Source: Cyanobacterium stanieri LEGE 03274
GTDB taxonomy: Bacteria; Cyanobacteriota; Cyanobacteriia; Cyanobacteriales; Cyanobacteriaceae
DNA: 64,000 bases
Direction of reading: 5' to 3'
Assembly (NCBI RefSeq): GCF_015207825.1
Contig: NZ_JADEWC010000018.1
Span: forward strand, 1 to 64,000
A program made the translations under genes and the position numbers. Position 1 is the stretch's first letter; each line of letters begins with the position of its first letter. This document shows positions 59,166 through 63,969 of this stretch, in pieces. The notes below the pieces were generated by a model. The model made no database searches. It was given only the letters and a program-made list of their open reading frames with translations, and was not told the origin of the DNA.

Positions 59166-61445
59166 CTAATCCGCAGACTTATCACGATCCAACTTAAGCA
59201 TTAAAACACCGAGGGGAGGTAAACATAAATCAAGGGAGTAAGGATAATCATGGAAAAACCATTCATCAGTCCATTTGCCACCCAAGTTACCCATATTACT
59301 TCCACCATAATCTTTAGAATCACTGTTAAAGATTTCGCTATAAAACCCAGCTTCTGGCACACCAACACGATAATGGCTATGGGGTTGAGGAGTAAAGTTA
59401 CAGACAACTACAATAAAATCATCTGCATTTTTAGCACGACGAATAAAGGAAACCACACTATGGCGACTATCACTACAGTCTATCCATTGAAAACCTTCTT
59501 CCTCAAAATCCCTTTCATAGAGTGCGGGTTCAGATTTATAAATATCGTTGAGGTTGGCGAAAAATCCTTTTAGTTGACGGTGGGATTGATAGTTAAGTAG
59601 ATGCCATTCTAAGTCTTTCCAGACATTCCATTCTGTCCATTGCCCAAATTCCATGCTCATAAACATGGTCTTTTTACCTGGATGGGCAAACATATAACTA
59701 AATAAACTACGAAGGTTGGCAAATTTTTGCCATTCATCCCCTGGCACTTTACCAATCATGTTGCTTTTGCCATGGACTATTTCATCGTGGGAAAGGGCTA
59801 ACATATAGTTTTCGCTGTGGTGATACCACATACTAAAGGTAACGCTATTTTGGTGAAATTGACGAAACCAAGGATCCATGGCGAAATAGTCTAGCATATC
59901 GTGCATCCAACCCATGTTCCATTTCATGTTGAATCCTAAACCACCCATGTAGGGGGGGCGTGATACCATGGCCCAGGAGGTGGATTCTTCGGCGATGGAA
60001 AGGATACCGGGGAAGTAGTTAAAGATTGTGCCGTTTACTTGTCTTAAAAATTCTACGGCTTCAATGTTTTCTCTACCGCCGTAGTCGTTGGCTACCCATT
60101 GCCCATCTTCTCTATCGTAGTCGAGGTATAACATGGAGGCGACGGCATCTACTCGGATTCCGTCAATGTGATATTTATCGAACCAGAATAGGGCATTGGC
60201 GACGAGGAAGTTACGGACTTCGTTACGACCATAGTTAAATACTAATGTACCCCAGCCTTTATGTTCTCCTTTGCGGGGATCTCCATGTTCAAATAGGTGA
60301 GTTCCATCGAAGAAGGCTAGTCCGTGTCCGTCTTTGGGGAAGTGACCGGGGACCCAATCAACTATTACGCCGATGCCGTGGAGGTGACATTGATCGATGA
60401 AGTACATGAGGTCTTCGGGAGAGCCATAGCGGGAGGTGGGGGCGTAGTAGCCTGTCACTTGGTAACCCCATGAGCCATCGAAGGGATGTTCGGCGATGGG
60501 TAGTAGTTCGATGTGGGTGTATCCTAGTTCTTTGACGTAGGGGATAAGGCTTTCGGCTAGTTCGTAGTAGGTTAGGAAACGGGCATCGGGTTTGGCGTCG
60601 GAGGCGGTGACGATTTCGGTTTGTTGCCCGTAGTTTTTGGGGGGTTGTTCTTTGGAGGTGTGTAGCCATGAACCGATGTGGAGTTCATAGACGGAGATGG
60701 GTTGGTTGAGGGGATCGGTGTTACGGCGTTTTTCGAGCCATTGTTGATCGTGCCATTGGTAGGTGTCTAAGTCGGCAACGATGGAGGCGGTTTTTGGTCT
60801 AACTTCTTGGGAGAAGCCGAAGGGGTCTGATTTTTCGTAGATGTGACCTTCCCAGTTTTTGATTTCGTATTTATAGTGAGTGCCGATGTCTAGTTCGGGG
60901 ATGAATAATTCCCAGACGATGTTATTTATTTTACGCATTTGATGTTCTCTACCGTCCCAGCTGTTGAAGTCTCCGAGAATGGATACGTTACGGGCGTTGG
61001 GGGCCCATACGGCGAAATAAACTCCTTTGACTCCGTTTTGCTCGATGACGTGGGCGCCTAGTTTTTCGTAAATGCGGTGATGGTTTCCTTCTTGGAATAG
61101 GTATAAGTCATAGTCGGTGATGGTACTGGATTTGAATTGGTAGGGGTCATAAATTACTTTTTCTTGATCTCCTTGTTTGATTTTTAGTTGATAGTTGTTT
61201 AGTTCTTCTGTTTTAATTTCACATTCAAAGAAGTTGGGGTGATGGTGCGATCGCATCTTATATTCTTCTCGAAGTTCTGGGGCAATAACATAGGCTTCGG
61301 AGGCTTTGGGTAAATAAGCTCTAATCACATAGGTTTTCTCGCCTTCTTCTTGGCTAAGAAGATGAATCCCCAATATTTCAAAGGGATCATGGTGTAGATT
61401 ATTTACAATTTGTTCTACTTGTTGACTGGTAATATTGCTAGGCAT
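59166..61445 (-). CDS. glgB: 1,4-alpha-glucan branching enzyme
   Basis: This GH13 glycogen branching enzyme (759 aa) forms the alpha-1,6 branch points. N-terminal carbohydrate-binding modules (about 15-230, with FAVWAPNARNVSILGDFN) precede the TIM barrel: HIELLPIAEHPFDGSWGYQ, GVIVDWVPGHFPKDGHGLAFFDG, the nucleophile in GIRVDAVASMLYLDY, the acid in AEESTSW and LSHDEIVHGK. The C-terminal LPPLGVLMLKL ends the domain. It is the usual cyanobacterial glgB. It is the third sugar-phosphate or glycogen-related gene in this stretch. Confidence 0.97.
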   Translation of the reverse strand: MPSNITSQQVEQIVNNLHHDPFEILGIHLLSQEEGEKTYVIRAYLPKASEAYVIAPELREEYKMRSHHHPNFFECEIKTEELNNYQLKIKQGDQEKVIYDPYQFKSSTITDYDLYLFQEGNHHRIYEKLGAHVIEQNGVKGVYFAVWAPNARNVSILGDFNSWDGREHQMRKINNIVWELFIPELDIGTHYKYEIKNWEGHIYEKSDPFGFSQEVRPKTASIVADLDTYQWHDQQWLEKRRNTDPLNQPISVYELHIGSWLHTSKEQPPKNYGQQTEIVTASDAKPDARFLTYYELAESLIPYVKELGYTHIELLPIAEHPFDGSWGYQVTGYYAPTSRYGSPEDLMYFIDQCHLHGIGVIVDWVPGHFPKDGHGLAFFDGTHLFEHGDPRKGEHKGWGTLVFNYGRNEVRNFLVANALFWFDKYHIDGIRVDAVASMLYLDYDREDGQWVANDYGGRENIEAVEFLRQVNGTIFNYFPGILSIAEESTSWAMVSRPPYMGGLGFNMKWNMGWMHDMLDYFAMDPWFRQFHQNSVTFSMWYHHSENYMLALSHDEIVHGKSNMIGKVPGDEWQKFANLRSLFSYMFAHPGKKTMFMSMEFGQWTEWNVWKDLEWHLLNYQSHRQLKGFFANLNDIYKSEPALYERDFEEEGFQWIDCSDSRHSVVSFIRRAKNADDFIVVVCNFTPQPHSHYRVGVPEAGFYSEIFNSDSKDYGGSNMGNLGGKWTDEWFFHDYPYSLDLCLPPLGVLMLKLDRDKSAD

Positions 61446-61494: not shown

Positions 61495-63969
61495 CTAGTT
61501 TTTCTGGATTGATTCGATTAAATGGGGAAAATCATCAAGGGTTTGTTCTAATAAATCAAGGTCAAAGGAATTAATTTGCTCTTGTAAATGGTGACTATAT
61601 TCCCATAGAGGCTGATAATCATACTTTTTGGCTTCTTGGGTCAAATTTTGGGCTAATTCCCTAATATAAGCGGTTATTTTGGTTTTATGGGCTTTTTCCC
61701 ATAGGGGTAGGTATTTATCTTGGAGGATATTAATCATTTCTTTCCTTTGAGGGGGGGGCAAGGGATGATTTTTTTCTTGTGAGGGGGGCAAAAAATAAGC
61801 AGTTTTTAGGGATGTATTTTGAGCAAATAATTTTTTGAGAATGGTGACGATGTCGCTACGGCGCACTGGTTTGGGCAATAGTTCAAATATTAGGGGTTTT
61901 ATTGCTTCTATATTTTCGGCTTGGGGGGATGCGGTGACAATGACAATGGGAATATCTTTGGTACTAGAATTATGTTTTAAAAATTTCACTACCTCTTTAC
62001 CATCTAAAACAGGCATTTTTAAATCTAGTAAAATTAATTGGGGTTTATATCTTAGGGTATTGGCGATCGCCTCTTGACCATCTTCAGCAAAAACAAGATG
62101 ATGGAGAGTACCATGGAAAAAACCCTTCATTAACTGTAAATTAGAAGGAACATCATCAGCCACCAAAATCGTCAAAGGCTCAAATTGTTCCAAATTATCA
62201 TCCAATAAAGATGCCATGGGAGAAGGAAAAACCAAAGCACAACCCACCAAGGGAAAAGTAACCGTAAACACACTGCCCACCCCCACCGCACTTGAAACCT
62301 CAATGGTGCCATCAAGCATATTCACCAACTTTTTAGTAATCGTTAACCCCAAGCCCGTGCCACCATATTTACGATTATTTTGTCCATTTTGCTGAGTAAA
62401 AGATTCAAAAACCCTCTCCATATCCTCCTCAGGAATACCTATACCGCTATCCTCAATGGCAATAAAAAACCCACAATTTTTAATACCTACCTCGAAGCCT
62501 TCCCCGTTATAACAACCAGCCTTAACCCTTACAAAACCATGTTCAGTAAACTTAATGGCATTACCAATCAAATTAAACAAAATTTGTCTTAAGCGAATCG
62601 GCTCAAATATCACCCCCACAGGAAAATCTTCCCGAATATCCAAAATTAAATCAATACCCTTTTTTTGCGACTGATACTGAAAAATAGTAATAATTTCTTG
62701 CAATAAATCTCTAACATTTAAAGCCTCATAATCTACCCTCATTTTTCCCGCTTCAATTTTAGATAAATCCAAAATATCATTAATCAAAGCTAATAAAGTA
62801 TGACCACTACTCGAAATAGAATCAAGATAACTCCTAGCCAAATTATCAGGTATAAAATCTTTTAATAAATCAGAAAACCCTAGTATAGCATTCATAGGAG
62901 TTCTAATTTCATGACTAATATTGGCTAAAAATTCACTTTTTGTAAGATTAGCAATTTCGGCTTCTTCCTTAGCTACTTTTAATTGTGCCGATTTTTTTTG
63001 CACCTCCAAAAAAAGTTCAGCTTGTTCGATAGCAATACCCAATTGTACAGCAATTTGCTTGAGTAAATTAACCTGTCTTGATACCCAAAAAAAAGATTGA
63101 CAATGATAAGCCCCCAATAAACCCCATAATTTATCACGGGTAAAAATAGGCACAATACACATGGCTTGGGCATCAAATTCCTGATACAACCGACGATGAC
63201 AATGGGAAAAATTTGCCTGAGAAATATCATTAATGGTTGTTACTTCTCCCTGACGGTAACGCCCCCCATGGTTTTCCTGTAAGTAACTATCATCCCATCT
63301 ACGGAGATTATTTTGTTCTACCAAGGAGATTAAACCAACTTTTTTACTTTCGGCAATAAATTCTCCCCCCCAATCTTCTTGAAAACCATAGACAGAAACT
63401 CGATCGCACTTTAAAATATTTCTAACTTCATCACAGGTAGTATTACAAATCACCTCAAAATCGAGACTATCCCGCATTTTCTTCATAATGGAGTTAACTG
63501 CCTTTTGAAATAAGGCATTCTCCCTCAGGGCAATTTCCCTTTGTTTATCAATGGTAATGTCAGAAATTACCCCATTCCATACCACACAATCATCAATGGT
63601 AGAGGGGATACAATGAATTTTCAAATATTTTTGTTTACCTTTAGGAGTAACAATGGAAAAACTATAGTTTAAGTCTCTTAAATATTGGCGGGATAAATAA
63701 ATAATTTGCCATAAATCATTCCGTTGCCCTTTCTCAATTAAATTAAATAATTTTTGTCCATCATCGGTAATTTCTTCGGGGCTTAATCCCAATATGTGTT
63801 GACTGGCATCACTGACAAAGGAAAAATAATAATTATCTTTTTTATCCATAAAAAATTGAAAAATTACATCGGGAGTTAGGGCTGTAATTTCTCTTAAAAC
63901 TTGATTATTTATAATTTTATTAAATGATGTTTTTTTTAGATTTTCAATAGTTTTTTTCTCTTTATTCAT
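61495..63969 (-). CDS. Hybrid histidine kinase with PAS and cyanobacteriochrome-like GAF
   Basis: This sensor kinase (824 aa) is soluble. Residues ~30-145 are a PAS domain, ~150-325 a GAF domain, ~345-575 a histidine kinase core, and ~598-720 a receiver domain. H353 in SHEIRTP is the phospho-acceptor and D649 in LLDLKMP the receiver aspartate. N-box NLIGNAIKF and G-box YGGTGLGL are intact. The GAF holds [31 protein letters not shown] and C257-H258 (SHCHRRL), the position where phytochrome-superfamily GAFs attach a bilin. The C-terminal ~80 residues are helical and might be HPt-like, but lack a clear His motif. No cognate regulator is adjacent. Confidence 0.9.

Follow-up and report, generated by a model that had tools for sequence, protein, structure and literature searches.

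The window, namely the whole stretch of 64,000 nucleotides analysed herein from Cyanobacterium stanieri LEGE 03274, carries near its right end a gene for a hybrid histidine kinase, which is followed on the same strand by glgB (Table 1). The open frame of the kinase is intact, with an ATG start, 824 codons and no internal stops. HisKA, HATPase_c and receiver domains were all found above the Pfam cut-offs, together with the phosphoacceptor H353, the ATP-binding boxes and the receiver residue D649, which is the make-up of a hybrid histidine kinase; in this respect the earlier note, which had read such a kinase at 61495-63969 from the letters alone, is borne out. Moreover its numbering of the pair C257-H258 in the GAF domain proved right when checked by script, as did the position of W225, and all of the motif strings that it quoted occur in the translation. 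It had also proposed a layout of PAS, GAF, kinase core and receiver, of which the last three parts are above cut-off while the PAS part stays below it, since the PAS_9 match at residues 40-139 scores 19.6 bits versus a cut-off of 27 in Pfam. In fact when five orthologs were scanned for PAS domains, the G008 protein (L023) gave a PAS_3 match above cut-off, whose best stretch (369-454) aligns with about residues 50-135 of this kinase; the G020 protein gave several matches, those of G007 and G002 were below cut-off, and none is listed for G003. A PAS domain in this kinase is thus likely, albeit weakly supported.

Table 1. Features of the kinase locus, with positions in the window and the basis of each assignment
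Feature	Position	Strand	Basis or remark
Hybrid histidine kinase gene	61495..63969	(-)	824 aa; PAS-like - XRG-type GAF - HisKA - HATPase - receiver - C-terminal tail
PAS-like domain, residues 40-139	63553..63852	(-)	Pfam PAS_9 below cut-off here; above cut-off (PAS_3) in the G008 ortholog
GAF domain, residues 170-314, XRG cyanobacteriochrome type	63028..63462	(-)	Pfam E 5.5e-20, structure-chain matches, trees
WXDXXL motif, W225 D D227 S Y L230 (defines XRG)	63280..63297	(-)	Alignment; definition from an excerpt of PMC11284453
C257-H258, predicted bilin-attachment Cys and adjoining His	63196..63201	(-)	Equivalent to C321/H322 of AnPixJg2
C271, extra Cys directly before VPI, lineage-conserved	63157..63159	(-)	Ortholog alignment
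HisKA dimerisation/phosphoacceptor domain, residues 344-408, H353 in SHEIRTP	62746..62940	(-)	Pfam above cut-off and motif
HATPase_c catalytic domain, residues 457-574, ATP-binding boxes intact	62248..62601	(-)	Pfam above cut-off and motifs
Receiver (Response_reg), residues 601-711: D605-D606, D649 (LLDLKMP), K700	61837..62169	(-)	Pfam above cut-off and residues
glgB, 1,4-alpha-glucan branching enzyme	59166..61445	(-)	Begins 49 bp past the kinase stop; possible co-transcription

As the part that may sense light, the GAF domain merits a closer comparison with the known cyanobacteriochromes, by which the earlier note had proposed to class it. Among the solved structures its top matches are 5zoh (E = 2.5e-44), 6bhn (3.7e-44), 3w2z (3.2e-42) and 5dfx (1.2e-40), and further down stand 6oap (1.6e-31) and the DXCF chain 3vv4 (1.3e-14); in this list we take 6bhn to be NpR6012g4 and 5dfx to be Slr1393g3. 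The chains 3W2Z and 5ZOH are structures of AnPixJg2 according to an excerpt of PMC8156171, and an excerpt of PMC11284453 takes the WXDXXL motif as the defining mark of the extended red/green (XRG) domains, states that they arose through loss of the second Cys of the DXCF domains, and describes them as diverse, with photoconversion lost in some. The GAF domain here has the WXDXXL motif as well as the canonical Cys (C257) and is without the second Cys of DXCF domains, at whose position there is a Tyr (Y229); moreover the string DXCF is absent from the whole open frame of the kinase. In AnPixJg2, the residues W289, D291, R301, H322 and Y352 are named as crucial for the cofactor in the excerpt of PMC8156171, and their equivalents in our alignment are W225, D227, R237, H258 and Y288, with no insertion relative to AnPixJg2 found in the GAF alignment. 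The comparison thus gives the XRG class with predicted red/green switching.

The likeness to the three solved red/green domains (AnPixJg2, NpR6012g4 and Slr1393g3) comprises the WXDXXL motif, the canonical Cys-His, the Arg-Tyr at 237-238, the pocket Tyr288, and Phe at 196 and 265, whereas C271 and C290 here stand against Ile/Val/Leu and Asn there, and before W295 this GAF is one residue shorter; besides, the annotation is chemotaxis protein for two of those three and histidine kinase for the other. Compared with AnPixJg2 in particular, there is S228 in place of Thr, and positions 229, 244, 254 and 286 differ too, so that the colours could shift. With the DXCF cyanobacteriochromes, namely PixJ (3vv4) and the GAFs of L032, L033, L035 and L036 in the same genome, the GAF family and the canonical Cys are held in common, but residue 229 is Tyr in this GAF and Cys in the DXCF domains, and the DXCF class is ruled out by this missing Cys. 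Phytochrome is likewise ruled out, as no match to a PHY domain was found anywhere in the kinase protein (Pfam, E 0.01), and so is the group of 6oap and 6mgh, which has Val at the position where W225 is present here. As for HrmK, its model (NCBIfam NF038297) matches residues 173-680, covering GAF, kinase and receiver, at 260.6 bits, yet this is far under the cut-off of 725 and the kinase is not a member. A structure predicted for the GAF alone had a pLDDT of 37.5 and was set aside.

The placement was also followed in two trees, the first of 49 sequences, for which support values were not printed, and the second of 112 sequences with FastTree support. The earlier note had pointed to the non-chromophore GAF groups as the placement at odds with a bilin reading; in both trees the GAF falls instead with AnPixJg2, NpR6012g4 and Slr1393g3. 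Support for the XRG clade of 102 tips is 0.81 in the second tree, and 1.0 for the clade of 104 tips that adds 6oap and 6mgh; within XRG, 12 of the 13 orthologs form one clade with support 1.0, sister to the 90 other XRG sequences. The remaining one, from G020, moves among these 90 sequences, and judged by its GAF may thus not be a strict ortholog. In the first tree the 13 orthologs stand beside four other XRG GAFs, so the position of the orthologs within XRG differs between the trees. The first tree also places four GAFs that lack the canonical Cys outside the XRG clade, and three of these are its nearest neighbours, with long branches. Both the moderate support of the XRG clade (0.81) and the differing position within it count against the red/green reading. 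Pfam by itself says just GAF, and one might thus suppose that this is an ordinary GAF that binds no bilin and has its Cys-His by chance; given the E-values to the solved red/green cyanobacteriochromes, the WXDXXL motif, the pocket residues and the trees, this is very unlikely, to the point of being negligible. In fact a match reaching 2.5e-44, together with C257 in every one of the 13 orthologs, is not a matter of chance.

Outside the orthologs, the nearest GAFs in other genomes are 37-47% identical to this one, and the best of four GAF matches in plasmid records is 42% identical and lies on a plasmid of Synechococcus sp. PCC 7502. A scan of viral contigs gave no relatives of the kinase, and a scan of genome contigs gave four loci, which match chiefly the kinase part, one of them starting at residue 262. 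No published description of this kinase was recognised in the literature searched.

To collect the orthologs themselves, the whole protein was searched against 60 relatives, among them the own genome, at E <= 1e-150. Counting this kinase there are 13; of the 15 genomes in its family 12 have one, and the last is from G020 of the order; the family genomes without an ortholog are G004, which has a broken copy, G005, which is 67% complete, and G013. Ten of the 13 (L021-L030; 938 to 1362 aa) have a longer N-terminus with roughly 100 to 500 extra residues, an extension that is absent in this kinase and in those of G003 and G001 (824 to 832 aa). As for the pocket, C257, D227 and Y288 are conserved in 13 of 13 orthologs, W225 and H258 in 12 and R237 in 11; in the G020 relative Phe replaces W225 and Tyr replaces H258. 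Among 86 other XRG-like GAFs, C257 is present in all and W225 in 73; since the members of this set were chosen for their similarity to the query and do not sample XRG domains at random, such counts describe the relatives rather than GAFs at large. The set was drawn from 60 of the 116 matches listed, taken by position, plus matches already among our loci, with nine second hits per locus of the order set, L083 (which is the G020 sequence) and the exact duplicates L088, L092 and L116 left out of the counts.

The broken copy in the congener G004 (L050/L065 and L070) is of a different kind. Its N-terminal part (residues about 11-251) is separated by about 1 Mb from its C-terminal part (479-824), and a stretch of about 1.1 kb with DDE-transposase-like fragments interrupts the GAF part, while transposase-like frames stand at both outer breaks; moreover the remnant contains stops and has Tyr at the canonical Cys, and its 3' part adjoins an intact glgB. 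The kinase is hence dispensable in at least one relative, which counts against the red/green reading as well. The broken copy with its Tyr, along with the Phe and Tyr replacing W225 and H258 in the distant G020, would also fit a degenerate GAF, which keeps the cyanobacteriochrome motif after bilin and light sensing were lost and leaves the kinase to answer some other signal through the PAS-like domain or the GAF. Considering that the gene here is intact, and that C257, D227 and Y288 are kept in all of the intact orthologs, we regard such a degeneration as quite improbable for this kinase.

Another departure from the typical red/green domain is C271, which is Cys in 11 of the 13 orthologs and Ser in the other two, versus Cys in only 5 of the 86 other XRG-like GAFs, a set of the query's own relatives. 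This distribution speaks for a reading in which the XRG-type GAF binds a bilin but its photochemistry is shifted or atypical, as in a biliverdin far-red/orange sensor or a dual-Cys photocycle via C271. In the alignment C271 corresponds to I335 of AnPixJg2, and the adjoining I336 is a position altered in the biliverdin-binding AnPixJg2 variant (3w2z vs 5zoh); because it is this neighbour that is altered, the side chain of C271 would by strand alternation probably point away from the bilin, which argues against the dual-Cys form. As for biliverdin, two of the four positions altered in the biliverdin-accepting AnPixJg2 already hold the altered residue here (Y229 and T244), the changes in that variant including H293Y and F308T according to the excerpt of PMC8156171. 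However, the remaining two do not match (F254 and I272), the Tyr at the first of these positions is found in Slr1393g3 as well, and the genome encodes a phycocyanobilin reductase. Taking these points together, a shifted or atypical photochemistry of either form appears unlikely.

In the own genome there is one match to heme oxygenase and one to a bilin reductase, and the latter scores 358.6 bits with the NCBIfam model of phycocyanobilin:ferredoxin oxidoreductase, whose cut-off is 206; with both genes at hand phycocyanobilin should be available, and it is the expected chromophore. The bilin-type reading of the GAF in the earlier note is thus supported at the sequence level by the signature residues, the placement within XRG and the bilin synthesis genes. 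More specifically, it is highly probable that the product of the gene is a hybrid histidine kinase with a cyanobacteriochrome GAF of the red/green (XRG) type, which attaches phycocyanobilin via C257, with predicted red/green switching, and for the photochemistry of the GAF this amounts to a strong prediction. In the mechanism that we infer, which takes in the colours, the bilin adduct, the direction of kinase control and the target, the GAF would attach phycocyanobilin through C257, with W225, D227, R237, H258 and Y288 holding the bilin; red light would isomerise the C15=C16 bond to give a green-absorbing photoproduct, and green light would reverse it. The signal would then travel along the helix joining GAF to HisKA and alter autophosphorylation at H353, from which the phosphate would pass to the protein's own receiver, at D649, and then to a further partner. 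As far as its sequence tells, the kinase is a sound but ordinary addition to a well-known family of photoreceptors, and ordinary for a cyanobacterium.

The neighbourhood of the gene offers glgB as a conceivable partner. No terminator-like site was found between the kinase and glgB, and the count of promoter-like sites, 21 versus 15.0 (sd 3.7) in shuffled sequence, is of little weight. The adjacency was looked at in 14 genomes, namely the 13 with an intact kinase gene plus the G004 remnant. In this genome (G000) and in G003 glgB comes next after the kinase, and in G004 it lies beside the 3' kinase remnant, which makes 3 of 14, with contig ends limiting the view on one side in L020, L021 and L022. 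The other 11 genomes have a different gene downstream, except G002, where the contig ends after about 1.1 kb in which nothing matches glgB. As the adjacency is seen in just these three genomes, glgB makes a weak case as a conserved functional partner, and among the matches listed in our literature search there was no paper that links cyanobacteriochromes and light quality with glgB and glycogen. A more far-reaching reading would have the kinase family as a sublineage that branched off early within XRG and has a photocycle of its own, C271 serving as a second thiol, and with glgB co-transcribed in the genus, whereby the colour of the light would govern how glycogen is branched; we hold this combination to be highly improbable. 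What is gained is a classed candidate photoreceptor, for which the lineage-specific Cys and the glgB adjacency are small testable leads. On the other side of the kinase, past the right end of the window, an OmpR-type response regulator gene (L018 8624-9412) lies upstream on the same strand; in G003 no gene of this type is seen immediately ahead of the kinase.

Besides this kinase, the genome has ten further GAF matches (11 in all), and the WXDXXL motif at its proper place occurs only in the kinase. Five of the other GAFs have both the DXCF motif and the canonical Cys, namely those of L032, L033 (twice), L035 and L036; among solved structures an L033 GAF matches best the DXCF chain 3vv4 (1.5e-47), and the L032 GAF matches best 6oap (1.5e-42). 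If the kinase is active as a red/green switch, it would be the probable cyanobacteriochrome for red light in this organism; the single PHY-domain (phytochrome-type) protein of the genome, encoded on another contig, may also sense red light. Two other frames have features of their own: the GAF-bearing open frame L037 (G000:C7:46743-47288) has a D-D-C-F string without the Cys-His pattern searched for, and the GAF of L038 (G000:C26:40980-41438) keeps the Asp-Xaa-Cys of DXCF and has Glu at the canonical Cys.
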